Shown piece by piece: positions 3,123 to 22,500 of a stretch of DNA of 25,026 nt. This DNA is from a virus. Position numbers and translations under genes: made by a program. A model generated the notes under the pieces. The model made no database searches and was not told the DNA's origin. It worked only from the letters and a program-made list of their open reading frames with translations. The stretch's first letter is position 1, and each line of letters opens with the position of its first letter. The DNA is taken from positions 1-25,026 of IMG/VR virus record IMGVR_UViG_3300034152_000949; one strand, given 5' to 3'.

Positions 3123-3216
3123 AGAGAAAATTTGGTAAAAAATGCTAAGTATGACTGTAAAAAATTTGTAGAATATTTAAAAGTAAAAAGAACTGAGTAT
3201 GTGGAGGATGATCACT
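3123..3216 (+). promoter_or_regulatory. Intergenic gap with start-deciding ribosome-binding site
   Basis: This 94-nt AT-rich gap is the second-largest non-coding stretch between genes. GGAGG at 3203-3207 is 9 nt before ATG 3217. The in-frame ATGs at 3199 and 3208 lie ahead of or directly next to the SD, so 3217 is the preferred start of the cupin gene. No convincing -35/-10 pair or hairpin terminator was seen. Confidence 0.55.
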
Positions 3217-4236
3217 ATGAGTGATAGAGAATATGCCCATAGGGGTGTTTTACCTAGTTGGTTAGAAGAGTTTGCTGATAAGGAACTGCAAAAGGGCGGC
3301 AACCCTTTTGATGATATTCGTGAACTTTTTAAATCCAAAAACGATGTGGAGGCTGTAGAGGCTCGCGTTGAAGAATTGCGTGAACGTGTCGGTCTAGATC
3401 TTATAGAAAAGATTGCCGCCAAGTCTGGATATTCTGGTCCAATTGAAAAGCAAACCGTAGAAAACAAAAACTATCGTAAAGTTATTTTTACTGGAGATCA
3501 TTCTCAATTGGTACTTATGAGTGTGGACGGTGGCCAGGAGATTGGAACAGAGACCCATAATGATATAGATCAGTTTTTTCGTGTTGAAAGTGGAGAGGCC
3601 GATTTTATTCTAGATGGCAAAAAGAAACGCATAAAGGCTGATGAGGCTATCATTGTTCCAGCAGGAACAGAACATAATGTGGTAAATGCTTCTGACACAG
3701 AACCTTTAAAGCTATATACCATATATAGTCCTCCAGAACATGAAAAAAATACAGTTCACAAGACCAAGTCTGATGCCGAGAAAAAGGCTAAGATGATTTT
3801 GCAACTCGCAAAGTTTGCTCAAGCTTTAGAAGATGAGGGGATGTTAAAAGAAGCGGTTATGGTGGATGAACAGCTTGATGCACTTATGAAAGATCCTCTA
3901 ATGGCAAAGGATAAGGAAATAAAAGAACTTCCAAAAAAATATGAAAAGTTCGATGGACTTGACGAATTTATTCAAAATGCTTGTAGAACAAGCGGCGGAC
4001 ATGCTTCGATACCTGCAATCCAAGATAGGATTCGCAAGGAATTTGATGACGAAATTGATGTCAAAAATAAGGAGCTTGAAGCTTACATTAAACACTGCCT
4101 GAAAGAACATGAGGATAAAATTTCCGATGATAGCAAAAAAGATGAGCATGCGGGAGAATATATTGCTATTATAGTTACAGAAGATGATGATGGTAATAAG
4201 CAAGTGTTTGATGAACCAAGTAGCGGTACAATATGA
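3217..4236 (+). CDS. Cupin-domain protein with unique N- and C-terminal regions
   Basis: A cupin beta-barrel spans about residues 80-180. Motif 1 reads GTETHNDIDQFFRVESG (His114) and motif 2 reads VPAGTEHNVV (Pro148, His153). Compared with the standard HxH...E...H metal site, the second His is Asp116 and the Glu is Gln119. This variant resembles mannose-6-phosphate-isomerase-like small cupins and leaves metal binding uncertain. About 75 helical residues precede the barrel. After it comes a helical motif (ILQLAKFAQALEDEGMLKEA) that resembles a motif in other proteins of this window, then an acidic tail. The start at 3217 is chosen from the SD at 3203-3207; an upstream in-frame ATG at 3199 would add six residues. 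The gene overlaps the terminase start by 4 nt (ATGA). A sugar- or capsid-related role cannot be told apart here. Confidence 0.8.
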   Translation: MSDREYAHRGVLPSWLEEFADKELQKGGNPFDDIRELFKSKNDVEAVEARVEELRERVGLDLIEKIAAKSGYSGPIEKQTVENKNYRKVIFTGDHSQLVLMSVDGGQEIGTETHNDIDQFFRVESGEADFILDGKKKRIKADEAIIVPAGTEHNVVNASDTEPLKLYTIYSPPEHEKNTVHKTKSDAEKKAKMILQLAKFAQALEDEGMLKEAVMVDEQLDALMKDPLMAKDKEIKELPKKYEKFDGLDEFIQNACRTSGGHASIPAIQDRIRKEFDDEIDVKNKELEAYIKHCLKEHEDKISDDSKKDEHAGEYIAIIVTEDDDGNKQVFDEPSSGTI

Positions 4237-6086
4237 ATTTAGCCCAAATGAAGAGTCCTCTTGAGGCTTGGACTCCAGAAAACAGTTTTATATCTTTAAA
4301 ACGGGAGCTTATGAAGATCGACCCCGTTTCCTTTACTGAGTCATTTCTAACTCTGGATGGCAAGCCTTTTCAAGTAACAAACAATGGGTGGAAATTTATT
4401 GCTGATGTATATCGTCACATTGCCACGGTAGCGATGTCTTCAGGTGGAAAACCCATTGTTATTGTTAAGGGCCGTCAGGTTGGTGCCACAGTGATGGCTA
4501 CAGCGCTTGAGTTGTATATGGTTGCTAGTGGTTTGTTTGGTGTCGGCGGAATCCCTCCAGTTAGAGTAACACATGCATTTCCACATTTAGACATGATGCA
4601 TGGTTTTTCCAAAGATAAGCTTGAGAAGATGATTATGGAGTCGGTACAAATATCTGATTTCAAGGATGAACGCCATCCTGGAAAACTCAAGCCATATGTC
4701 CAGGCCCAAAAGAACAGCAAAAGAGATTCTACTGATAGTTTGTATTATAAGCAGTTTAAACATGGAAATGTTCTCTGGTGTGAATCTATTGGAAATGAAG
4801 GAACAAGAGTTCTGGGTCGTACCTTTGATGTGTGTTTTTTTGATGAGGTTCAGGACATGTCGGAAGTTGCAATTGCCAAGACTATTAAATGTTTGACTCA
4901 CGCACAGCATGGCCCTAAGCCAGGCGGAGTCCAAGTGTATTTTGGGACTCCACGACAAAAAGGAACATTTTTTCATAGGTTGTGGGAATCATCCGACCAG
5001 AGAAGATATTATTTAAGGTGCCAAGACTGCGGAAAATACTTTTTACTATACACACCAGGGTCGGACAAGTGGGAAAAAGACATTTGGCTTTATGAAAATG
5101 TTGTAAAGTGCCCTAGTTGTGGATGCGAGCAGGATAAGGTCCACGCAGTTGAACGTGGAAAATGGTTGCCAACACCAGGCAGAGAGGATTCAGATTACGT
5201 AGGTTTCCACTTTAACCAATTATTTATCCCTAATTTTACTAAGGAAGTTATTCTTAAAGAAAAGCCTGAGCACAACCCAAGAAACTCAAAAATGATTTTT
5301 GATAATGAGGTTTTGGGAGAATTTCACTCTGGAGCTGGAATGCCTATATCCAGAGAGGAAATATATCAGATGTGCAGAGACTCTGATCGAGCCATGGCAA
5401 GATATATAGATAGAGAGTCTAAAACTGTATATCTTGGATGTGACTGGGGTGGTAAACCAGATATTGATGGAATTAAACGCGGTCAGTCTTTTTCCTGTGG
5501 AGTTATTTTATCTGTAGACCACGATGAAAGGTTTAATATTGAGTTTGCTAAAAAACTTAAAGTTCTTGACATTGATGGCAAAATGTCCTTCGTAGATAAC
5601 ATGTTTCGTCTATATGGCGTTAAAAGTGCGATGGGCGATATTGGTTTTGCTGAAGATGTTACCACTGAGCTAAAAAAGGCTTATGGAGAAAGATATAGAT
5701 CTGTTAGAAGTACAGGTATGGTGAAGGGCGGCGTGAAATACGACAGAGAATTGTTAGAAGTAATTGTAGACAAAGACAAAATGATTGGCGAGATGTTTGA
5801 ACTGCTAAGGAAAGGTAGGTTTCGTTTTCCTTGGGCTAGTTATGAATCTATTTCTTGGCTGGTTGCCCACTGTTGCTCTATGGAGAGCAAAGTTGTAATG
5901 CGACAGGGACAGCCTCACCAAACTTACATAAAGGGTAAGATCCAAAACGACGGATTTATGGCTTTAATGTATGCGTATTTGGCATATAAGTTTGACAAAA
6001 CTCGTGGATTTAAAGTTAATGTTGAAACCCCAAGTAATACGAGGTTTCCTAAGCCGGTACTGGCTTACGTGCCCAAGAGTTTTTAA
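4233..6086 (+). CDS. terL: Phage terminase large subunit (ATPase and nuclease)
   Basis: This is the motor subunit that powers DNA packaging into the prohead and cuts the concatemer. The ATPase domain has a deviant Walker A, VKGRQVGAT (residues 78-86), of the KxRQxG type in which the usual lysine before the final Thr is replaced, and a Walker B/catalytic stretch FFDEVQD at about 202-208. A two-CxxC zinc-ribbon-like insert (CQDC and CPSC, about 265-295) recalls GpA-type terminases. The C-terminal RNase H-like nuclease shows acidic motifs in YLGCDWGG, SAMGDIGF and QNDGFMALMYAY. The 617-residue length is normal for this class. The ATG overlaps the cupin stop (ATGA) with no clear SD of its own, pointing to translational coupling. 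The portal gene begins 11 nt after the stop, the usual packaging-module order. No intein is present here. Confidence 0.93.
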   Translation: MNLAQMKSPLEAWTPENSFISLKRELMKIDPVSFTESFLTLDGKPFQVTNNGWKFIADVYRHIATVAMSSGGKPIVIVKGRQVGATVMATALELYMVASGLFGVGGIPPVRVTHAFPHLDMMHGFSKDKLEKMIMESVQISDFKDERHPGKLKPYVQAQKNSKRDSTDSLYYKQFKHGNVLWCESIGNEGTRVLGRTFDVCFFDEVQDMSEVAIAKTIKCLTHAQHGPKPGGVQVYFGTPRQKGTFFHRLWESSDQRRYYLRCQDCGKYFLLYTPGSDKWEKDIWLYENVVKCPSCGCEQDKVHAVERGKWLPTPGREDSDYVGFHFNQLFIPNFTKEVILKEKPEHNPRNSKMIFDNEVLGEFHSGAGMPISREEIYQMCRDSDRAMARYIDRESKTVYLGCDWGGKPDIDGIKRGQSFSCGVILSVDHDERFNIEFAKKLKVLDIDGKMSFVDNMFRLYGVKSAMGDIGFAEDVTTELKKAYGERYRSVRSTGMVKGGVKYDRELLEVIVDKDKMIGEMFELLRKGRFRFPWASYESISWLVAHCCSMESKVVMRQGQPHQTYIKGKIQNDGFMALMYAYLAYKFDKTRGFKVNVETPSNTRFPKPVLAYVPKSF

Positions 6087-6097
6087 AGGAGTATATA

Positions 6098-9000
6098 ATG
6101 ACTAAGAGAAGAGGAATTGGATCAAAGGCCCCCGACCCAAGATTAAGAGTAACTCCCAAGAGAGCCGCCGGTATTACTGAGTATCGTAGAGCAAGTTTGG
6201 AAGGCGAACTAGAAACAGGAATGGTAAGAGAAAGTGTAAGTTATGAGGGCAGCAGACTAAACAAAAGCCCTCAGAGCGTTCGCAATGCTGCTGATGATAG
6301 TGATGGTTTGAGAAGAAGCGCTTGGCTGCCTGGAATAGGTGGCGGAGGATATGTTCGTCAGGGCGCTTCAACCACTGCTGTAGGGGCTATTGCTCATAGC
6401 GAATCTTTTATAAAAAGAGAGGCAGCTAAAGCTGAAGCTCAACTGAAAAAAATGGGGAACTTTTCCTCTGGCGTGCCAGGAGGCGTTGGATCTGTGGGTG
6501 GCGCAGCGGGAACGACCGCAGGTGCTACAGTTGAACGTCTTGCGCCAGAAGTATATAGTCCTCTATTTACTATGGCAAATCTCAATTTGCCAAGAGACAG
6601 GATAACCATTAATGCTTGGTGCTTTCTTCCTGGAACTATGGTATGTATGGCTGACGGGACAAGAAAGCCAATTGAGGATATAAAAATTGGAGATGTTGTT
6701 CTTTCTGCAGATGGGACTCCACAAGAAGTTACTACCCTTTTTGAAAGACATGTTGATGAGGAAATTGTTGGCATAAGAATAAAAGGGTCTCAGAAAACAA
6801 TATGGTCTACCACAAATCATGGGTTTAAAGCAGTTAGATCCGGAGAAGTACGCTGTTGTAATAGGAAAACCTATGTAAAATGTAAGCCAGGCAAAATTGA
6901 GGGGAAGTTTTGTGAATGGTGTGGAAGAGAGGAAGATCCATATATTTTTGAAAAAATTGCAGCTGGGGAACTTTCACGGAGAGATTTTGTTTACAGCCCA
7001 GTTCTAAATGTGGCTCCAAGAAGTTTAGCAGAGGCCTATTTCGAGTACGAAGAGCATATGGAACTGCTAGGATACTATGCCGCCGAAGGATCGCTTAGTA
7101 GGAATACGGGAGTTTATTTTAATTTTGGGATTCATGAGGAGAATACAGCTTCTCATGTTGCTGATCTTTTCCACCGTATTTGGGGAGGAAAAAAGCCAAC
7201 CCTAAGAAAGCGGCTATCGAAAAGTAATATACAGGTTGAGTGCCACAATAAGCACGCTAATAGTTTTTATCGAGAGAATTGTGGTGGGATATCTACAAGC
7301 AAGAAGCTTTCGTACGACGTAGTGCGGGCAAGTCCAGAAGTTTTAGTACATTTTTTAAAAGCATGGCTTGACGGAGATGGATCACAAGAAAAATATAATG
7401 CGGATATTTTTTCTGGAAACACTTCATCTGAGGATTTGGCATGGCAGGTTCGTACTATTGCTTTACGATGTGGACTAGTAGCGCATGTGTTTGAGGACTC
7501 TTCTCAAAATACTATGATATCTCCGACCAACGGGAAAAGGTATAATGCTTCTACACGATACTATGTAAAATTTAGAGGGAAATCGGCTCTCAGACTGTCT
7601 GAATTTTTTGAGACAAGCCTATATCGTTTTGGAGAAGTTGAACGTAAGTATGTACGTGACGGAGTTTCATTTATTCATAATGACAAACTCATCCAGTGGA
7701 TTAACAATGTTGAAAGAAAACAATATACTGGACCAGTATATAATATTGAGGTTTCTGGTACTCACACATATGTAGTTGAAGATGTAGCTGTTTACAATTG
7801 CCGCAACTTTTTTCAACTACATCCAATAGTTAGAAACGCTATTACCCTGCATGCTACTTATCCTATTAGTAAGTTGAATTTAAAGTGTCATGACAAAAAA
7901 GTTCTTCAGTTCTTTGAAGATATGATCGAAGAAATGGATTTAATGAATGCTCTTGGAGATATTTCTTTGGAATATTGGAAACTGGGTGAGTGCTTCCCGT
8001 TTGCAGAGTTGAACGAAAAAACCGGGAAATGGTCTAGAGTTGTTATTCAAAATCCAGACTATATACATGTTAAGAAGACTGTTTTATCTAGCGACCCAAT
8101 TGTTACACTAAAGCCTGATGCTGTGTTACAACGTCTTGTTTTTAGTAACAATCCTGCTGACGCACAGTTAAGAAGGCAAATCCCAGAAAAAATAATATAT
8201 CACGTTCGTACGGGACAAAATATTCCTCTGGATAGTTTTAATGTTTCTCACCTTAAAATGCTCTCAAGTCCATATGATGTAAGAGGGACGAGCGTAATTG
8301 TTAGTGTTTTTAAAGACTTAATGTTGTACGACAAATTACGTGAGTGTTTTCCAATATTTACAGAGGTTCTAACAAAAGATGGGTTCAAATTTTACGATGA
8401 TGTAATGCCAGAAGACGAAATTGCAACTGTGAATCCAAAAACAAATGAGTTAGAATTCCAAAAATATATTAATCGTACAGATTATGAATTTGACGGAGAC
8501 TTATATCATTTTTCTGGTAAAAAAATAGATACTATGGTTACTCCAAATCACAGAATGTGGTTATCTAAAAAGAAAACTCACCATAAGGGATATAATGATT
8601 TTCAATTTGTAAGAGCAGAAGATGTTAAAATAGGATGTTTTTACAGATCTCAAGCAGTAATTAATAAATATTCTGGAAAAGAGGTATCACATATAGATCT
8701 TTTTGATAGTAAAATTCCCACAGAAGATTATCTAGAATTTCTTGGATATGTTATTTCTGAAGGTTGTATTCACTTTAATGAAAACACACAACAATATGGT
8801 CTTTCTTTTTGCCAAAATAAAAATACTAGAAACCACCTATTCTTTAAAAATTCTATAGAAAAGATAGGGGGGTTACTTAATGTACATATAGGATCGTACG
8901 ACAGAATAAATAAAAATGGTTTTTCATCTAATGAGGATAATGAAATAACGCGTTGGACAATAAGCAGAAAACATGTTGTAAAGCATTTTTTTGATGAAAT

Positions 9001-10384
9001 TGGTTCTGGCTCTAGGAACAAGCATATTCCGTATTGGATTAAACAATTGTCTCCTAGATTATTAAAAATATTATTAAAAGCATTAGTGAGGGGTGATGGT
9101 TCAGAAATAAATAGTAGGTATAAGAACGGCTCTATGTCATATAGATACCATACTATTTCCAAACAGTTAGCGGATGATGTACAAGAAATTCTATTTAAAT
9201 GCGGATATGCTTCACATTTAATGCTTGATAAGAATGGGCAAGATAAAGAATTCTATCTTATTACTTGGTCTGACTCAAATTATGGGAAAAATCCAGTAAT
9301 ATATGGAAACTCTAAAAATACAAATAATACCGGAGCATTTATAGAAAAAGTTCCATATAAGGGAAGGGTTTTTTGTTTTGAAGTACCTAATGGACTGTTT
9401 GTTACTAGAAATAATGGCTTAATTACTATTCAAGGGAATTCAAAGTTCGCTCAGGCAGACGGTATGGTTAACCCAGTTACACTAATTAAGGTTGGAGGAA
9501 ATACAGAGGGCGAATATAGAGCCACTCAAGAAGATCTTGAGTTTTTCAGGCAAATGTTTGAAGAGGCTCAATATGACAAAGACTTTAAACTTATTACCCA
9601 TGCTGGAGTTACTGTAGAGCGTGTGGGATTTTCAGGACAGGTGTTGGACATTGCTGGAGATTTGGAGTTCATCACAAAGAACATATATACTGGCCTTATG
9701 GTTCCACCAGCTGTTGTTGATACAGAAAGTGCCGCGTATTCTTCCGCATCGATTGGATTAGAAGTCTTAAGACAGAGATACTTTAATTTTCGCAACATGA
9801 TAGCCAGATGGCTAGTAAATAAAATCTTTGCTCCTATCAGTGAAGTACAAGAGTTTTACGAATACAAAAACAAAGAAAAACATTTGATTGTACCAGAAGT
9901 TGAGTGGAATCAAATGAACCTTTATGATCTGCAAGACTATATTGGTAATATTACTGGTATGGTAAGTGCTGGTCAAGCTTCTGTCCAAACTCTATATAAG
10001 AGCCTTGGACTTAGTTATCAGGATGAAAGAGTTAAGATGAGACAGGAGGCTATTGATAAGGCAATTAAGATGCGTGAAGAAAATGCTCTATCAAGCATGA
10101 GCCTCACTGAGCTTAGGTCTCTTGACCCTGAAAAGCCGATTATGGATCCTATCGATAGTAAGGAAAGAGAAAAGGCTACTCCACCTGAAGCAGGAGCACC
10201 TGCTGGTATGCCTGGCAAAGAAATGGGCATGCCTGGCGGTGAAATGGGCGGAGCACCAGGAGGGCTACCAGAACTAGCACCACCTCCTGGCGGTGAAATG
10301 GGTGGCGAAGTTCCTGGAGCTGGAGCGCCTGAGGGCGGAGTAACTCCCCCTCTTGGACCTGGAGCTGGCGCAGGAGGTCCATAA
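6098..10384 (+). CDS. Portal protein precursor interrupted by two inteins
   Basis: The 1428-residue open frame is a portal protein with two in-frame inteins at residues 175-567 and 750-1114. Joining the remaining parts gives about 670 residues, a normal large portal. Recognisable portal sequence includes RNFFQLHPIVRNAITLHA, YDVRGTSVIVSVFKDLMLYD, SKFAQADGMVNPVTLIKVGG and the region from NIYTGLMVPP to IARWLVNKIF. The portal forms the dodecameric ring at the head vertex through which terminase pumps DNA. The N-terminal about 60 residues are basic. The last about 85 residues are a Gly/Pro/Met/Glu-rich tail (GMPGKEMGMPGGEMGG and similar) and probably disordered. AAAGGAG lies 7-8 nt before the ATG, and the stop overlaps the next start by 1 nt. 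Without splicing the ring could not assemble, so both inteins must be active. Confidence 0.93.
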   Translation: MTKRRGIGSKAPDPRLRVTPKRAAGITEYRRASLEGELETGMVRESVSYEGSRLNKSPQSVRNAADDSDGLRRSAWLPGIGGGGYVRQGASTTAVGAIAHSESFIKREAAKAEAQLKKMGNFSSGVPGGVGSVGGAAGTTAGATVERLAPEVYSPLFTMANLNLPRDRITINAWCFLPGTMVCMADGTRKPIEDIKIGDVVLSADGTPQEVTTLFERHVDEEIVGIRIKGSQKTIWSTTNHGFKAVRSGEVRCCNRKTYVKCKPGKIEGKFCEWCGREEDPYIFEKIAAGELSRRDFVYSPVLNVAPRSLAEAYFEYEEHMELLGYYAAEGSLSRNTGVYFNFGIHEENTASHVADLFHRIWGGKKPTLRKRLSKSNIQVECHNKHANSFYRENCGGISTSKKLSYDVVRASPEVLVHFLKAWLDGDGSQEKYNADIFSGNTSSEDLAWQVRTIALRCGLVAHVFEDSSQNTMISPTNGKRYNASTRYYVKFRGKSALRLSEFFETSLYRFGEVERKYVRDGVSFIHNDKLIQWINNVERKQYTGPVYNIEVSGTHTYVVEDVAVYNCRNFFQLHPIVRNAITLHATYPISKLNLKCHDKKVLQFFEDMIEEMDLMNALGDISLEYWKLGECFPFAELNEKTGKWSRVVIQNPDYIHVKKTVLSSDPIVTLKPDAVLQRLVFSNNPADAQLRRQIPEKIIYHVRTGQNIPLDSFNVSHLKMLSSPYDVRGTSVIVSVFKDLMLYDKLRECFPIFTEVLTKDGFKFYDDVMPEDEIATVNPKTNELEFQKYINRTDYEFDGDLYHFSGKKIDTMVTPNHRMWLSKKKTHHKGYNDFQFVRAEDVKIGCFYRSQAVINKYSGKEVSHIDLFDSKIPTEDYLEFLGYVISEGCIHFNENTQQYGLSFCQNKNTRNHLFFKNSIEKIGGLLNVHIGSYDRINKNGFSSNEDNEITRWTISRKHVVKHFFDEIGSGSRNKHIPYWIKQLSPRLLKILLKALVRGDGSEINSRYKNGSMSYRYHTISKQLADDVQEILFKCGYASHLMLDKNGQDKEFYLITWSDSNYGKNPVIYGNSKNTNNTGAFIEKVPYKGRVFCFEVPNGLFVTRNNGLITIQGNSKFAQADGMVNPVTLIKVGGNTEGEYRATQEDLEFFRQMFEEAQYDKDFKLITHAGVTVERVGFSGQVLDIAGDLEFITKNIYTGLMVPPAVVDTESAAYSSASIGLEVLRQRYFNFRNMIARWLVNKIFAPISEVQEFYEYKNKEKHLIVPEVEWNQMNLYDLQDYIGNITGMVSAGQASVQTLYKSLGLSYQDERVKMRQEAIDKAIKMREENALSSMSLTELRSLDPEKPIMDPIDSKEREKATPPEAGAPAGMPGKEMGMPGGEMGGAPGGLPELAPPPGGEMGGEVPGAGAPEGGVTPPLGPGAGAGGP
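6620..7798 (+). mobile_element. Intein 1 in portal, LAGLIDADG homing endonuclease type
   Basis: The 393-residue intein starts at Cys (block A, CFLPGTMVCMADG, then IEDIKIGDVVLS). Block B is TTNHGF. The two endonuclease motifs are LLGYYAAEGS (about 7063-7094) and AWLDGDGS (about 7361-7384). It ends IEVSGTHTYVVEDVAVYN followed by Cys as first extein residue. The penultimate residue is Tyr instead of the usual His. A cysteine cluster (CCNRKTYVKC, then FCEWCG) follows block B and may bind zinc. The insertion lies between NAW and CRNFFQLHP of the portal. One sampled row of its sequence (7321-7380) is 43% G+C. Confidence 0.93.
8345..9439 (+). mobile_element. Intein 2 in portal, LAGLIDADG homing endonuclease type
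   Basis: The 365-residue intein starts at Cys (CFPIFTEVLTKDGFKFYDDV). Block B is TPNHRMWL. The endonuclease motifs are FLGYVISEGC (about 8739-8768) and ALVRGDGS (about 9080-9103). It ends FCFEVPNGLFVTRNNGLITI, then QGN, followed by Ser as first extein residue. The penultimate residue is Gly. It sits between DKLRE and SKFAQADG, a conserved portal segment. Sampled rows have about 27-28% G+C, lower than intein 1, which suggests a separate arrival. The second motif has RGDGS where the usual form is DGDGS, so nuclease activity is uncertain. Confidence 0.93.
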
Positions 10385-12297: not shown

Positions 12298-13173
12298 ATG
12301 AAGAAGTGTCCCAAATGTGGTCAGCTCAAAGACCTGAAGTGTTTCAGCCGAGACAAGAGTAGAAAGGATGGCCTGTACTGCTACTGTAAAACATGTCACA
12401 AGCATATTCAGGATGCTGATAGGAAGCGCATTAAAGAGAGGAAACGTCAGCACTATCTCAAACACAGAAAAGAAAAAATCAAAAGTCAACAGGCATATTG
12501 TGAAGAACATAAAGAAAAAATTGCGACGTATAATCGTGCATACCAGAAAATTTACTACTCTAGAACGAAAAACACGCTTCGCCATCGGTATAAAGCCTAT
12601 AAGGGTGATGCTAGGCGGAGGGGGGTCGATTTCCTCCTGACTGTTGAAGAATTTGGTTTTTTCTGGCAGCAGCCCTGCGAATACTGCGGTATCGCTATAG
12701 ATACAGTAGGTATCGATAGGCGGGATAGTCAGAAAGGATATGAATTGGACAACTGTGTTTCGTGCTGTTCGACTTGTAATCTGGCCAAAGGGCAGCTTAC
12801 CTTCGATGAATGGATGATGTATCTTGAGCAGGTTGCGACGTATTGTCGTACAGGATTGGTCAAGCAAGTTGGTTCAGTCATACCATGTGACAACCTGAAA
12901 ATGAGGTATGGAGTGTATAGACATAATGCTAAACGGAAAAATCTTATGTTTGAGCTAACTTTGGAACAGTTCAAATTTTTCAGTAGCAGGCCGTGTGAGT
13001 ATTGCGGCAGAGCAGGTGTTGTTGGAATAGATAGGGTCGATAATAGTATCGGATATAAGGAGGACAACTGTGTTCCATGTTGCAAGAATTGTAACAGCGG
13101 TAAAAATAATGGTTCTCTTACAAAATGGTTAGATTGGAGAACCCGAGTGGCAGAACGCAGGTTGGGAACATGA
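12298..13173 (+). CDS. Free-standing endonuclease with zinc ribbon and two HNH modules
   Basis: This 291-residue protein is a probable homing endonuclease. The N-terminus is a zinc ribbon (CPKCG at 4-8, CKTCHK at about 30-35), followed by a basic helical region to about 90. Two similar modules of roughly 85 residues come next. Each has an (K/R)xRYxxYxxxAxR-type helix, then PCEYCG, GIDRxDxxxGYxxDNCV, CCxxCNxxK. The second Cys pairs and the Asn/His-like core fit the phage HNH_3-type fold, with Asp-Arg where many HNH enzymes have Asp-His. AGGAG at 12288-12292 precedes the ATG by 5 nt. The gene is clearly richer in G+C than the preceding one (sampled rows 42-50% against 30%), which indicates recent transfer. 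Its stop overlaps the giant gene's likely start (ATGA). Confidence 0.85.
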   Translation: MKKCPKCGQLKDLKCFSRDKSRKDGLYCYCKTCHKHIQDADRKRIKERKRQHYLKHRKEKIKSQQAYCEEHKEKIATYNRAYQKIYYSRTKNTLRHRYKAYKGDARRRGVDFLLTVEEFGFFWQQPCEYCGIAIDTVGIDRRDSQKGYELDNCVSCCSTCNLAKGQLTFDEWMMYLEQVATYCRTGLVKQVGSVIPCDNLKMRYGVYRHNAKRKNLMFELTLEQFKFFSSRPCEYCGRAGVVGIDRVDNSIGYKEDNCVPCCKNCNSGKNNGSLTKWLDWRTRVAERRLGT

Positions 13174-13585
13174 TGATATGTCTTTCTAAATACGTATTAG
13201 CTTCATCGTTGTCACCTGTTTCTTTAATGCGCCTTTCTGAAATCAGTGATCCTGACGAATTGCTGAAGAAAATAGATAAAAACCAAATAGTTATAGAGCA
13301 TAAGTATGATGGGTGGAGGGTGCAGGTCATCAAAGAAACTGGTAAGGTGCGTCTGTTTAGCCGGCGCGGCGAGGAGAAGACGGGAAATTTTCCAAAGATT
13401 GTGAAAGCTTTAACTTCGGCACTGCCCGACGGCACGCTCGCTGAAGGCGAGCTGGTCTATTGGTATAGGGGCAAGCAGGATGTGACCAAGGTCCAGTCCG
13501 TGGCCGGTAGTTCTACCGATAAGGCGCGTGATAAAATATCGTCTTTACCCGGCAAGTTCAAGCTCCACCTGTATGATGTTCTATG
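12298..13585. other. GC-rich tract spanning HNH gene and start of ligase domain
   Basis: Composition rises at the HNH gene and stays high through the first about 415 nt of the next gene (row counts give 53% G+C for 13321-13560). It then falls abruptly to 34% for 13561-13680, in the middle of the ligase domain. The change crosses a gene boundary and ends inside a domain, as expected for a transferred block or a homing co-conversion tract. Confidence 0.7.
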
Positions 13586-16500
13586 GCTAAAAGGCGTTAA
13601 TATATCTAAAAAAGCATTTTCCGAAAGAAGAAAAGCTCTTCAATCATTAATTAAGCCAACAGAGTCAATACTTCTAACCAAACAATACACATTTGACCAG
13701 TGGGAAGATGCGATGAATAGTGCGGTAGAATCTGGAGGAGAAGGTATTGTACTAAAGTTAAAAGATAAACCCTATGAATACAAATCCAAAGGCGAGACGG
13801 AACCAAAGCCCAAGGGAATAATGTTTAAATACAAGGGCGGGGCCGGCAAGTCTGATAGCGATGATTACGTTATTTATGACTATGAGACCACAGAAAAAGG
13901 CAATTTAAAAGCTTTTTTCGGACAATACTACAAGGGGAAACTATATCACATCAGTGAAATTAGCAATTTCTCTGAAGAGGATGAGGCTACTATTAGAAAG
14001 AAACTGCAGAGTGGTAGTTTTGTTATTGAGATTGGCTTTCAGGAGCGTGTTCCTGGTGGACTAAGACATCAGAAGTTTGAAAGGTTTCGCGACGACAAGA
14101 AGCCAAAAGATGCCACAATGCATGAGTTTCATGCCGAAAATATAGAGAAATTCAAAACTGTAAAAGCCATGAGCGAATTTCAACTTTCCAAAAGAGCAAA
14201 AAGTTTAACACCTCAGCGGTTGCTGGTGGAACTGCAGCCAGAAGTAAAGCCATTACGTGGTATGCCGAAGGCCCCATCGGTGCCGCCTAGTTTAAATTTT
14301 AACCCCGAACTCGGTTTTAGAATAATGTCTACACTAGAAAGTGGTAGAAAAAGCTGGGTACGTGGGGACTCTGGCAATTCGTTTGGTCTAACCCAAGTAC
14401 ATGGACCTTATTTTATGAGGTGGTTATCAAGACATCCACAACTTAAAAGAGTAACTGGAATAGATCCTAGCGAATTACGTGCTATGTCTGATACCTGGAA
14501 AAAGAATCTTAGAAGTGTACGTAAAGAAAAACTCTGGAAAACTGTGCCAGTTGACCAGGATAGGGTTAGAGAATTTATCAAAAAGAATCCTAGAAAAGTC
14601 GTTCGCAGACGCGAAGGCACAACTATAAGAATGAATCCCAGAAAGTTGCCTGGAGTTGTTAAAAAGGTGGGCCGTATATATGTTGGTAGAGAAATAGATA
14701 TTGACATGTTAGAAAGAAAATATGGGTTCAAGACTACTCCTCTTTCAGTTGCTCAACTTCAAAGAGTTGCCGATACGTATATTACTCCTGCTGTTGCTAG
14801 CAGTGCAGTAGCTCAGCTTTTAACATCTCAGGACCACCCAGAAACCTCGAAAAAGTTTTATGACTCTTTCTCTAGCAGGAGTGTACGAAAAAACAAAGCT
14901 ATGGCTCAATTATCAGATTGGGTTTCAAGATCTGATTTTATGGCCAAAATGAGGTTCCTTGTAAACGATGTAATAAAACATGGATATAATCCAAATGCAT
15001 CTGGTGCATATAATATGTACCAACTTATGTGTATTACTAATGGTAGCGGGCCATACAGAGTTAGAAGATTTTTAAAAAACAGAAAGGTTTTTGGTCCAGG
15101 TCATGTACACTACCTACAAAGAGCCAATCCCGTTATTCAAAAAATGACAGGTCTCTCTACCAACGTTATTGAAGGTGGGCTTGCTGGCTTCCCAGATGTG
15201 GGAAAGAAGAAGAGATATGCTTTCTTGAGTAAACGTGGGCAAGATGATTTTGATATGCCCGCCCCATCTGAATTCTCTGGACAGGCTGAAGCAATTAGAG
15301 CATTAGTAGAAAAATGGTTAAATCGCGATGCCGATCTTGATGATCTAATACCGTTTGGCGTAAAGTATATAGGTAAAGATATTGATAATAAAGTGGTTTA
15401 TATTACAATGTCCAAACAAGATGTTGAAAATATTAAACCTTTTATGCCAGAACAGATTGGTGAATATACAATTAAATATCAATATCCACTTACGGAGCCT
15501 GGATATTTACCAGATGTTGTTCCTCTTCCAGATTGTGATGATACAGATGAGGAGGAGCCATTTACTGAAGATAGCCCAACCAGAGTAGATCCTCTTAGTG
15601 AATTTGGTACAAAATACTATAAGCAGATATTGGAAGATTATGAGTGGTATGTTCAGCATATGAAGGAAGTAATAGAGGACTTAGATAGCCGATACGGCCG
15701 CAAGCATACAAGAGATGAAGCCGTTCAGGCTATAGTTAATACCCTAAAACAGAAATATAAGAAATTGCTTTCAGAATCACGGGTTGATATTCTGCTGCAA
15801 AAGTGTGCTTCTTATGTAGAGCCTGGAACGTTATATTTTCCAGGACAATATGCTGAAGACATTAAAAGTGGAAAACGACGAATGAGTATTAGGCCAGGAG
15901 ATGTTAATGTCAAACCAGATGAACATGTAAAATGTAAAACATATTCTGGCGCTGATATAGCTGATGTTAGAATACTTGCTAAGAAAATTATGAGCGTTCC
16001 ACGTATAGAAAAAAATTATGGCAAAGCTGTTGCAAAGTCTTTAAGCAGGCGCTTTGGTCCAGATAAAAGGTTTGTTTTAATAGAATTCGAGCCTATGGAT
16101 ATTAATGTTGCAGATGATGGCGATAATGATGATAAAGAGAAGTTGTCCGAGGTTCTTATTGATAAGGACAAGAAGCTAACTCGTGGGCAGATTAAAAAGC
16201 ACTACATGAAGCCAGAAATTAGAAAGAAGATAATGTCCAGAATTAAGGGCAAGCCTGTTTTGGTTTATATCGGTGTGGGTAAAAATGAAAGTATATTAAA
16301 ACGTAACCATAAGGGTAAAGAAATAGTAATTACAAACGATGATCCGAAAAATGACGAGCAGCCTAATAACTACTTCTACTGGGTTAAGCGTAGACTATTA
16401 TCTTTTCACCAGGTGTTTGGTACTAAAACAAGTGTTGGTTTTGTAGATTTGGACATCCATGGAGATTTTTCCTTGGGCCAGGCTAAGAAATATGCCAGGG

Positions 16501-19500
16501 AACTTGCTGGTAAAATAAAGTCTGAATATGGCGTAACCCCTACAATATATGAAAGTGGTGGCACTGGACTCCATGTAGAGTTTAAGCTTGGCCAAGAAAT
16601 GTCTATTGATAAATTACGTGGTGAGCTTAAAGAGCTGCTCACTGAATTAAATGAAGATTGGGAAGGTGTAACCACTGGTGTAGTAAAGGGTAGCGGGATG
16701 CGTTCCGATATAAGTACGCTACACAATAAGGGAAGTATTCGTGTGCCAGGTTCACTTGGCGAAAGTAATGGCAACGAAAAAAAATCTCTTGGAGGAAACC
16801 AAGATACCGCCGAGAATAACTATAGAAACGCTCCTCTTATGGAAACAAAATATGATTATACCGATCCAAGCATTCCTTTTCCTGAGGGGAATATTATTCA
16901 AGTGGCTCCACCTCAAGGGGAAGAGCCACATAGTCAACATGGTGCATACAATACATTAGATGATGCTTTCGCTCTTTCGAAACGACATGCTATAAAAAAA
17001 AAGAATGCTGGCTTCATGCCAGAAAAAGAATACATATGGGTCTGGGACCCAAGAAATGAAAGATTATTAACTCACCTCAACATTTCAAACGGCGAAGAGA
17101 CGGATAATATTCGCTCTCACATGACTCTAGCCGATGAACATGGTCTTATGTTAGGATTCAAAAAAGAAGATTTTAGAGGATATGTTCGTTTCTTTGAAAA
17201 TGAAGATATTGGAGAGGTACATCTTTATCAAGGTGATCCCAACTCTATGCCTTACAAGCTCCGAAGAGCCTTGGAAGGATTGTCTAAAGATGAATATTTG
17301 GAAACTAAAGAAATGGAACTGCCTAGGGGTGCTGGCGTGGAATTATGGAGGGCACAGGAGAAACAGAGACAGTTGGATCAACATCTTGAGAAAAGAAAAA
17401 TGATGGGCTTTGAAGAGGCTGATCCCGAGTTCGTTAAACAACTTGAAATTAAGTTTGCTTCTGTGAAAAAAAGAGTGGCAATGTTACTGTCGCCTACGGA
17501 ATTCTATGAGTCAGAATATTTTATTCCGCGTAAAATATTTGTGGAAAACTATGGCTTTACTGTCCATGTGATTTCTACCAAGGACACCGCCAAGGGTGCT
17601 CAGGGTACTGTGGTAAATGTAGACAAAAACCTTTCTGATTTAAAATCTAAACGTTACGATGCTCTTTTTGTTTGTGGTGGCAAAGGAATGATAAAGTTCT
17701 CTAAAAACAAAGAGGCACAGCAATTGCTTAAAGACTTTATAGAGCAAAAAAAGCCTGTTGGTTTAATATGCCACGCTCCTTTGTTGGCAGCTGAGGCTGA
17801 TGTTATTAGGGGCCGCGAAGTTACTGGATGGCCCGATATAGTAGGTAAAATCAAGAGAGCCAAGGGCCTGTGGACTGGAATGCCTATAGAAAGAGCTGGC
17901 ACCATTTTTACTGCTGTTGGCCCAGAGGAAGCGGAAGATTTAGCTTATATTATTTCACAATTTTTGCTGGGCAAAAACACACTTAAACCCACAAAAAAGA
18001 TATCTCAGAAAGAGGCTCAGGAAAAACTAGAACAACTTTGGAAAATAGCTGCCAATCCTGATGATGAAGAGGTTAAAAAATGGCTTGAAGAGCACCCAGA
18101 GTTCGCTGAGGAAGAGGAAGAAGGCGAAGAGATAGAGACTGAACAGGAACGTTTTGAGCGTGCCATTGTTCAACCACAAAAGCCAGAAGAACCTGAAGAG
18201 GTCGAAGAGCCTGGGGAACTAGAGGAAGAAGATGAAGAGATAGAAGAAGAGGTTCTTAAAGAGAGAAGGCCAAAATATGTGGGCTTCAAGCATGTGGTTA
18301 AGCCAGAGACTGAGGATGAAAGTGAAGAGCAGGAAGAAGAGCCTGATTATGCTGGGTTATTTGGCAAGCCAGATGATTCTTGGGAAGAGACTATGAAAGA
18401 GTATAAGGGTGTCGAAGAAGGAGAGGAAGAGGATGAGGGAGAAAAAATCCCTGTCTTTGGCGTGAAGTTAAAACCTCCCATGGATAAAAACGGCAATGTT
18501 TTGACTAGATGGTTTGAGCCAGAGGAAATAGAACGTCCCTTCATGTCTTCAGAAGCTAAAGATACTTTTAACCCAGATAACATGAGAGATGGACCCGCTT
18601 TAACAAAGTTATTTCAAGATCCAGATGCCTGGCGGCTGTTAAAAGAAAATCCGGAAATAGCTCAAAAATGGGTGCTCCCAGCTGTAATTATGGGAATTGG
18701 TAAAAAATGGTTTGATAATAATAGCACCCAACTAAGGCTTGGAGGCAGAGAGACTGATGTGGGCCGCACACCATTTGGAATGTTTGATACTGGTGATATC
18801 GAACTCCTGATGAAGGGCACACCCATATATGATTTGCCAAGTTCTAAAGCATATATTTCTCTTGTAAACGAACTTGTTACAGATCTTGCTAATACATATT
18901 TTTCTTACGGATACAGAGTAGATCCGCCACGTGGTAGTTTGCCTATTGGAGGCTTTATTTATAAATCTTTGGCACGTCAAATGTCTAAAAACATTGCTTC
19001 CGATAAGGGCTTTAAAGAAATTAGAGTCCCCGTTTGTTCTTATTGTAAATCTAGAAAACAAAAAAGACAAAGTAAAGAGGTGGTGTACCATGGTATGGAG
19101 CCATCAAAAGAGAAGAAGGGACCTAAAAGGTGGTACTGTGAAGAGTGTAAAAGAAAACATGAAGAAAATGTAGAAAAGATTGCTGAGCTTCGACATGAGA
19201 TGGATAGAAGACAAAAGCAAATCAACATGTTTCAGAAAAAATTAACGCGAACAGTGTCTTCTCTGGCTGATAATCCTACCCAAGAATTAATGGATGCAAA
19301 GCAAAAGTATGAAGATGCTATTGTCTCGTTGGCTACCGATATCAAGCATGCGAGGGCAGATTTAGCTAATCTTGAGAAAACCCAGTATAGCCTTGAAGTA
19401 CATATTCAGGGAGTGCCATATTGGCATACTTGGTGCCCAGAGCCTGAGTGTCCTGGTAATAGGGTTCCCTTGACTGCAGTTGATCGAAAAAGCGAGTTTT

Positions 19501-22500
19501 GGAAAACTGAAGCTGGAGTTAAGGCTGCGGAAGTTATGGAAAAAAGGTTTGGAATCACTGTAAATCCAGTTCAAAAGGCTGAAGAGTATAGTGAAGAAAT
19601 GCCAAAAATACTACCACAACGTGTGCCACCAGAAGAAATTCTTGATGTGCCATTTATTTGTCCCCATGATTATGTGAAATTTACGCTAAGAAGTGCTAGG
19701 GGCAAGGGCTTGCAGCGTAAAGGCGGGTTCTTCTGGGAACCTTGGCAACATATGAAATGGGATAGAATTGGAAAGGAAGAGATTGGTGTAGAAGAAGAAG
19801 GCATGGGAGGAATAGAGGCCGATCAGGAAGAAAATCGTAGAAACCAGATTGTTCAACGTACAAGCATGTATTTGTCTGCTTTGGGGGCAAAACTGTTTGA
19901 GGATCAGTATGAAACAGCCGTAAAGGAATATAACAAGTGGTTTACCAAGCAAGTAGAAATTCAGCGTGAAAAGGGCAAACCCGTTGTAGAAGCTGTAAAG
20001 AAAGTTGAACAATCTAGATCTAATGGAGCAAAACAACGATTGCTATCTATGTACCAAACTCTTGGTGAAACATCTCACTTGGATCCAGGAATGTTTGTTT
20101 CTTGGTTGAGTGAAATTGGTGTGGATAGTGAATTTGTAGCTGATGGAGAGGGTAATGTAGAAGAGCGTAATGTAACAAAGAAAATCAAATCCAAGGAAAG
20201 ACGAGACAACGTATATATCCCTACCCTACACTCTTGGGTTTCCAAAATGATAGAGTCTCGTGATGATTGGTTTGAGCATTACAAACTTGATGATATATTA
20301 GCAAATAAGCAGGCCGATGGTATTTATAGCAACGGGCCTGGCACCTTCTTTATAGCCAAGGTTGGAGATGAGGTTGTTGGGGATGATGTGATTTTTGGTT
20401 TTGGATGTAATTTGGTTCCAGCTCACAAGGAGCAAGGAAAGGTAAACCCATTCTCATATAGAATGAAAAAGGAAGATGAGGATTGGACCCTACCCCAACG
20501 AGATCCAAAAAAGCGTCCTCTAAGATATCAAACTTCTATGAAGCCTAAAGTGCTTAAATTTATTGGAGTTTGGAAATTATCTTCAGACCAAATGGAATTT
20601 ATAAGACCAGAGTGGCTAGATGGAACAACTCCAGTTCCTCTAAACAATAAGGTTATCGAATATGCCAAAGATAATCCAGGCGAGAATTTAGCTGGGGAAA
20701 TAATGTATAGTGATTACTACCGAGTGGCGCTTAATAAATCGGATACATCTGTAAGTATAGGTGATTATATTTTGGTGCAGGCGCTCGTAATGCCTGGAAA
20801 ATATAATCCAGAGCCTGTTGTAGATATTAGAAACATCAGAAACAAAAGCGACACTCATCAGCAAATTTTCTCTAAAGTTGGCGCACTTATGAATGAGAAA
20901 CCAGTAGACGAGCAATCTAAGGCTCTGCTGAAAGAGTTTTTCGAAGATATTGAAAATTATGGTGATGACCCAGAAGAAATGAAAATGTGTATGGAGGACC
21001 TTGTACGAGGTTTTGAAGATCTTAAGAAAAAGAGAGCGTCATTTTATATAAGCAAACGAGCCAAAGATCCTCTATCTACCTATAAGAAAAAGAGGAATTT
21101 TGATGAGACTACAGAGCCTGAGGGAGTGGTTGGTGGAAAAAACCAACACCGCTTCGTAATTCAACGACATAAGGCTGAAAAAGCAGGATGTTTTCCTAGA
21201 GAAGTAAGAGTAATAACTGAAAATGGGCCTATTAGGATTGGCGATATAGTAAAAAATCATTTAAAAACAAATGTCTTATCGTTTAGTCATGAATATGGTT
21301 TAGAATGGAAACCAATAGTGGGATGGTTTGAAAACGGTTCTACTTCTGAATGGATACATGTTAAAACAGACTATAATTATGGTTTTGTTGTTACAAAAAA
21401 TCATAAAATTTATAAAATCTGTAACAATTCTATTCAGAAATGTAAGGCTTGTGATATTATATCTGGGGATTATTTGTTCATTGGTGATGAAGAAATAACA
21501 CAAGACCAGTTTGATTTTATGATTGGCTCTTTATTGGGTGATGCTAGTATTACTAAATCGAGTGGTTTAGTTTTTTCGTATGGCCAATCTACGAATGAAA
21601 AGAAACCATATATTGATAAGATAGCTTCCATGTTTGGCTCTAAAACAGAAATTAGATTTGCTGATAATTATCACAAAAATAATTTTTATTATTTAAGAAA
21701 AAGACATAAAATTAATCACTTATTATATGATATTTTTTATGATGATAAAAAAGTTATAAAAAATAAAATTTTTGATTTTATAAATGAAAGGGTGTTGGCC
21801 GTATGGTTTATGGATGATGGCCAATGGTCCCCGGCTAGATCATATTTTGGAAATAATAAATTAGGCGGGCCGCATCGAAATGTGGGTCGTAGTATGTTTT
21901 CTGGTCAAATAAGTCTCTATACAAATGGATTTACCAAAAATGATAATATAAAACTTATTGATTTTCTAAAAAATAAGTTTGGTTTACATTTTACTTTGAG
22001 AAATAGGTTTGACAAAAAACAAAATAAAACATATTATTGGCTTTCACTTAGCAATAAAAAAGATATTGAGATGTTTTTTAATTTAGTATTTCAGTATATA
22101 GATAAAAGGTTTCAGTATAAATGCCCAATAGAAGTTGGTAATTATAATTGGGATATTTGTGAAGAAAAATATTGTCTTTTTCCAATAAAAGTTTCCAAGA
22201 TTGATAAAAAAAGCTATTACTCTTATAATAGAAATAAAACTAAAAAATACACAGCAAGGGTTAAAAAATTCGACATTGAAGTTGCCGACAATCATAATTA
22301 TTTTGCTGGTGGTATTTTGGTTTCTAATAGCCACTTTGATCTTCGCCTAGAAAACGACGAAGGAACAATGTCTTCATGGGCTATTCCAAAACATAAATTG
22401 CCAAAGGGGAAAGAGAAACTACTAGCTGTAAAGACTGAAGACCACCCGCTTTCTTATAGGAGCTTTAAGGGCGAAATTCCTTCTGGTTATGGTAAAGGTA

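Follow-up and report, generated by a model that had tools for sequence, protein, structure and literature searches.

The portal is the ring through which DNA passes into the capsid. Inteins in portal genes are already known: six have been reported in subcluster C1 mycobacteriophages (PORT; Kelley et al., 2016; PMC5050341), and in the published phages that we found to have portal inteins only one is present per portal. The portals of two C1 phages, Gizmo (gp94) and Cane17 (gp79), are intein-bearing homologues of the one described here (~22% identity), and an intein-free allele exists in their close relative Pleione, just as the present portal has relatives with empty sites. They differ from it in carrying a single intein at another position, around residue 507, and the Gizmo record labels its endonuclease HNH rather than LAGLIDADG. 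Essential genes with several non-allelic inteins have been described elsewhere. Haloarchaeal mcm has four insertion sites, at which multi-intein, single and empty alleles are intermixed (PMC10643990), and the TerL of crAss-like phages has two inteins (PMC7886860); Liu (2003), as cited in PMC4649490, gives four for the ribonucleotide reductase of Trichodesmium.

Here we describe a portal gene interrupted by two inteins. It lies in a single metagenomic contig of 25,026 bp, an IMG/VR virus record, the whole of which is called the window. Like mcm, TerL and ribonucleotide reductase, this gene has more than one non-allelic intein; unlike them, it encodes a structural ring protein, and related portals carry up to five (L118). 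The double portal itself adds one more case to a kind already known.

Anatomy of the doubly interrupted portal gene

The portal open reading frame (6098-10384, plus strand, as are all features of the gene and the terminase) runs uninterrupted for 1428 amino acids from an ATG at 6098, with AAAGGAG just 5′ of the start, and begins 12 bases past the end of the terminase frame at 6086. It holds two in-frame inserts of 393 and 365 amino acids, the removal of which leaves a 670-aa portal; site numbers below are those of this spliced portal, counted by the +1 residue (e.g., S357). The exteins match the portal family phrog_16240 (PHROGs, 5.8e-49). The N-extein (6098-6619, aa 1-174), open from the ATG, aligns with the intein-free portals of L004 and L005; the middle extein (7799-8344, 182 aa), which includes part of the phrog_16240 match, is 85.7% identical to L003 over residues 239-357; and the C-extein with its stop codon (9440-10384) is 91% identical to L003 over 236 aa and matches gp14 of Bacillus phage G. 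The latter is the nearest named portal (37% identity over residues 150-559) and, unlike the window portal, has no intein in its 649-aa frame. Together with the portal profile match, the adjoining large terminase places the protein among phage G-like portals of tailed phages. The terminase large subunit (4233-6086, 617 aa; Pfam GpA_ATPase) matches phrog_675 (5.9e-59) from aa 22 to 591 without an insert, which agrees with the first-pass annotation that it is intein-free. By sequence, the only match among solved structures is a borderline one, to the prophage protein YonE (9pha, E 0.05). For the L004 portal, which is free of inteins, AlphaFold gave a model of low confidence (pLDDT only 47.5, pTM 0.30).

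Across the whole portal protein Pfam finds two LAGLIDADG_3 stretches (1.3e-13). Intein 1 occupies aa 175-567 (6620-7798) at site 175, with the borders W/CFLPGT...VAVYN/CRNFFQ (slashes mark the junctions), and is supported by Pfam domains, same-site homologues and empty alleles. Its start region matches Hom_end_hint (6.1e-11), Hint (3e-9) and Hint_2. Class 1 features are present in the form of Cys1, a block B TTNH and a terminal Asn before Cys (YN/C). In alignment, the two endonuclease motifs LLGYYAAEG (7064-7090) and LKAWLDGDG (7355-7381) keep the catalytic Glu156 and Asp253.

Intein 2 occupies aa 750-1114 (8345-9439) at site 357, with the borders RE/CFPIFTEV...TIQGN/SKFAQA, and is supported by same-site alignment, the fold match of its AlphaFold model and empty alleles. 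Ten same-site homologues align with it from end to end at 45-75% identity. Invariant in this alignment are Cys1, TPxH (T66 and H69; here TPNH, as block B), Glu139 in motif FLGYVISEG (8738-8764), Asp251 in motif LKALVRGDG (9074-9100), and the terminal Gly-Asn, here before Ser (GN/S). The model is of high confidence (pLDDT 90.9, pTM 0.91) and over ~316 residues resembles the solved LAGLIDADG inteins TliVMA (Z 27.5), PI-PkoII (26.6) and PI-SceI (22.6). The whole-intein fold is thus common to them (Z 22-27 over ~310 residues), whereas identity is only 11-19%, the host genes differ (VMA, polymerase) and intein 2 has a penultimate Gly. A Hint fold is found in both inserts, by the model match in intein 2 and by Pfam in intein 1. 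The dN/dS of intein 2, ~0.12 and alike in its splicing and endonuclease parts, is only approximate because dS is high (1.4-2.0), and indicates purifying selection on both parts.

The outer limits 6620 and 9439 given earlier for the double-intein region prove exact to the base. That both inteins are complete, as had been claimed, holds for the splicing blocks, the Hint domain and the LAGLIDADG motifs with both acids; it does not hold for the usual penultimate His of block G, in place of which intein 1 has Tyr and intein 2 has Gly. This His is usual in class 1 inteins but not strictly defining, and exceptions are known; the assignment of both inserts to class 1 stands despite its absence because the other features are present. 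The penultimate residue is an invariant Gly in the ten relatives of intein 2 and varies among His, Arg and Tyr in the same-site relatives of intein 1, which are L021 (50% identity, with His), L109 (55%) and L096 (shortened). In L021 both catalytic acids are replaced (Glu by Gln in AAQGC, Asp by Ser in DGSGS) and the splicing blocks are retained. At the same site L096 has a mini-intein of 140 aa that is devoid of the endonuclease and likewise ends in YN/C; its retention is expected if splicing is still required. Judged from their sequences, these two copies represent stages in the known homing cycle. A pattern scan for relatives of intein 1 matched only L021 and L109, and the L096 copy surfaced through the search with intein 2.

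Other genes of the window were also noted. A gene 5′ of the terminase (3199-4236) encodes a cupin domain (Cupin_2, 3.7e-16), odd for a packaging cluster. A free-standing gene of the HNH/endonuclease VII-like type (12298-13173), the two halves of which resemble each other, overlaps the start of a 3178-aa frame (13125-22661). This frame joins an ATP-dependent DNA ligase to DJ-1/PfpI and LigD phosphoesterase domains, and its N-terminal part is conserved in L003-L005 (~70%). A third intein (21189-22328, 380 aa, C1...VSN/S, LAGLIDADG_2) interrupts the LigD 3′-phosphoesterase domain of this frame directly before SHFDLRLE; in the same domain of L016 the site is apparently empty.

Empty alleles and gain or loss of inteins

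Intein-free alleles, which the first-pass annotation had proposed to look for in metagenomes, were found among viral contigs. In L004 and L005 the same portal, 82% identical, lacks both inteins, and the codons flanking each junction adjoin directly, no residual bases being left. Scarless empty alleles for the two sites occur in L004, L005, L022, L013, L012 and others: site 175 is empty in L003, L004, L005, L007 and others, and site 357 in L004, L005, L009, L011-L013 and L022. Alignment to intein-free portals also bears out that the inteins sit in conserved portal segments, before CRNFFQ and SKFAQA. A natural insertion without splicing residues, named beforehand as the observation that would speak against inteins, was found at neither site, both segments carrying these residues.

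A maximum-likelihood tree built from 35 spliced portals requires at least two changes between presence and absence at site 175, at least four at site 239 and at least seven at site 357; gain or loss at these sites is frequent. The nearest tree neighbours of the window portal are L004 (no intein), L003 (239 and 357) and L008 (357 only). Within its own group of four the site 175 intein is found in the window portal only. The residue following the intein varies with intein presence: +1 Cys is found in 4/4 bearers at site 175 versus 9/58 intein-free portals (p 0.0013) and in 4/4 versus 4/58 at site 239 (p 1.3e-4), although related sequences are counted in these associations and co-conversion of the flanks could account for part of them. 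At site 357 the +1 residue is Ser or Cys in the bearers; here the difference in Ala (0/12 bearers versus 11/51) is by itself not significant (p 0.10). Intein-free relatives often have Asn, Ile, Val or Ala as the +1 residue. The +1 residues of bearers fit the predicted splicing chemistry.

Portal genes as an intein hot spot

How unusual is a doubly interrupted portal? The earlier claim that it is unusual remains valid against the published phages that we found, which have single inteins only, but it does not extend to the relatives of this portal. In a pooled set of 150 non-redundant portal frames, at least one intein is present in 76 (a fraction that is not a prevalence, because the set includes loci fetched by intein similarity), at least two in 32 and five in one. 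Samples keyed on the portal itself gave 12 bearers among 61 and 46 among 68; the second, made up of non-redundant portals from a distant clade, was seeded with intein-bearing portals, and 20 of its 68 have at least two.

The window's own pair of sites, 175 and 357, recurs in L109, a 340-kb virus; a different pair, 239 and 357, is found in L003 (a 301-kb contig) and L018. About ten positions are occupied, including 175, ~180, 193, 239, 357, ~400, 412, 421, 456 and 507. Complete portal frames of 1802 aa (L208) and 2051 aa (L246) contain four inteins each, those of L246 counted by eye and one of them lying inside a C-terminal DUF559 domain, and a 2021-aa frame that reaches the contig end (L118) contains five, three of which are short and without endonuclease. 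Automatic counts fall below the reading by eye (two versus three in L110, three versus four in L246). In L208, L246 and their kin, the C-terminus of the portal frame is fused to this DUF559/MTES_1575 restriction-endonuclease-like domain.

A scan of viral contigs with intein 2 gave 79 loci, ~40 of which are portals of the window's kind by extein similarity; of 32 further non-redundant loci, at least 13 have matches to portal families, in some cases to Pfam Phage_portal. By these matches the relatives of intein 2 reside mostly in portal genes. A cellular donor was not found, relatives in bacterial and archaeal genomes being at most 33% identical. Site 175 is common to both portal clades, and the second mostly carries an apparently different type of intein. 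Taken together, the portal family and its kin are an intein hot spot in uncultivated phages. In the literature searched, which was limited to open-licence papers, no description of a multi-site portal intein hot spot was found, nor does the phrase "portal inteins" occur there.

Some of these inteins depart from the usual N-terminal nucleophile. Those at site 239 have Lys, not Cys or Ser, as their first residue and are always followed by +1 Cys (L003:3397-4566, L018:1343-2557, L072:4432-5646); their splicing is possibly class 2-like. The site 175 inteins of the second clade (L130, L180, L189, L196, L198, L204 and L246), in which Leu, Glu, Met, Lys or Asp comes first and SN/C last, likewise have no N-terminal nucleophile.

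Explanations for the double-intein portal

What is established is the anatomy with its motifs, the existence of exact empty alleles without scars, gain or loss on repeated occasions, and purifying selection. The portal gene very probably contains two independent LAGLIDADG-type class 1 inteins, predicted to splice out and to home. Most likely, both leave the protein post-translationally and spread by homing. In this model, the 1428-aa precursor would be translated whole; each Hint domain would drive an N-to-S acyl shift and then transesterification to the +1 Cys (intein 1) or Ser (intein 2); and Asn cyclisation and ligation would yield a 670-aa portal able to form a ring. During co-infection the probable target of each endonuclease is the uninterrupted junction, 175 or 357, of an intein-free portal allele; repair of the cut would copy the intein in. 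Splicing, cleavage and the assembly of the ring only after splicing are what we infer; against the first, the penultimate Tyr or Gly could slow Asn cyclisation. Where two inteins move independently and meet, such a double state is to be expected, and haloarchaeal mcm shows the like (PMC10643990).

The same Tyr, at a position where L021 has His, might instead mean that decay of one of the inserts (intein 1 is the likeliest) has impaired its splicing, so that this allele yields little functional portal or depends on slow splicing. This is quite improbable: same-site relatives vary here among His, Arg and Tyr with the other blocks kept, the Tyr-ending L096 included, the frame, Cys1, terminal Asn, Cys+1 and both catalytic acids of intein 1 are intact, and the portal is essential, so that a non-splicing allele should not persist. 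Splicing might also be conditional: as a brake acting after translation, the two inteins would set the time of portal assembly and would have been retained for this function rather than only as parasites. Their location in conserved portal segments would suit such a role, as would the persistence in portals of endonuclease-free mini-inteins (L096, L118 and L208), given which homing does not maintain every intein. Presence and absence nevertheless alternate often among close relatives, down to intein-free alleles 82% identical, which speaks against a required function, and the mini-inteins may owe their persistence simply to the rarity of precise deletion. A regulatory role, though possible, need not be invoked, and we regard this account as very improbable.

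Since the evidence comes from a single 25-kb metagenomic contig, the double insertion could in principle be an assembly chimera. Recurrence of the 175 and 357 pair in the independent 340-kb contig, and of other doubles in L003 and L018/L019, makes this exceedingly unlikely, and an assembly artefact was rejected. That one or both inserts are ordinary domain insertions of the portal is scarcely conceivable: nothing was found in its favour, and splicing blocks and residues, LAGLIDADG domains, the whole-intein fold match and alleles empty at the exact residue refute it.

Beyond the two mobile inteins of the preferred explanation, it may be speculated that an intein lineage adapted to portals has its favoured niche in this gene of uncultivated phages and that sequential splicing gates ring assembly. 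Behind this idea lie the large number of non-allelic sites, the occurrence of as many as five inteins per gene and the retention of endonuclease-free inteins; we hold it to be improbable.

With these findings the weight in the picture of phage inteins moves to the portal and away from terminase and replication genes. Alleles with no, one or two inteins at matched sites constitute a natural test set for asking if adjacent inteins home together or hinder each other, and portals with several inteins would put to the test the number of splicing events that a single essential structural protein can bear.
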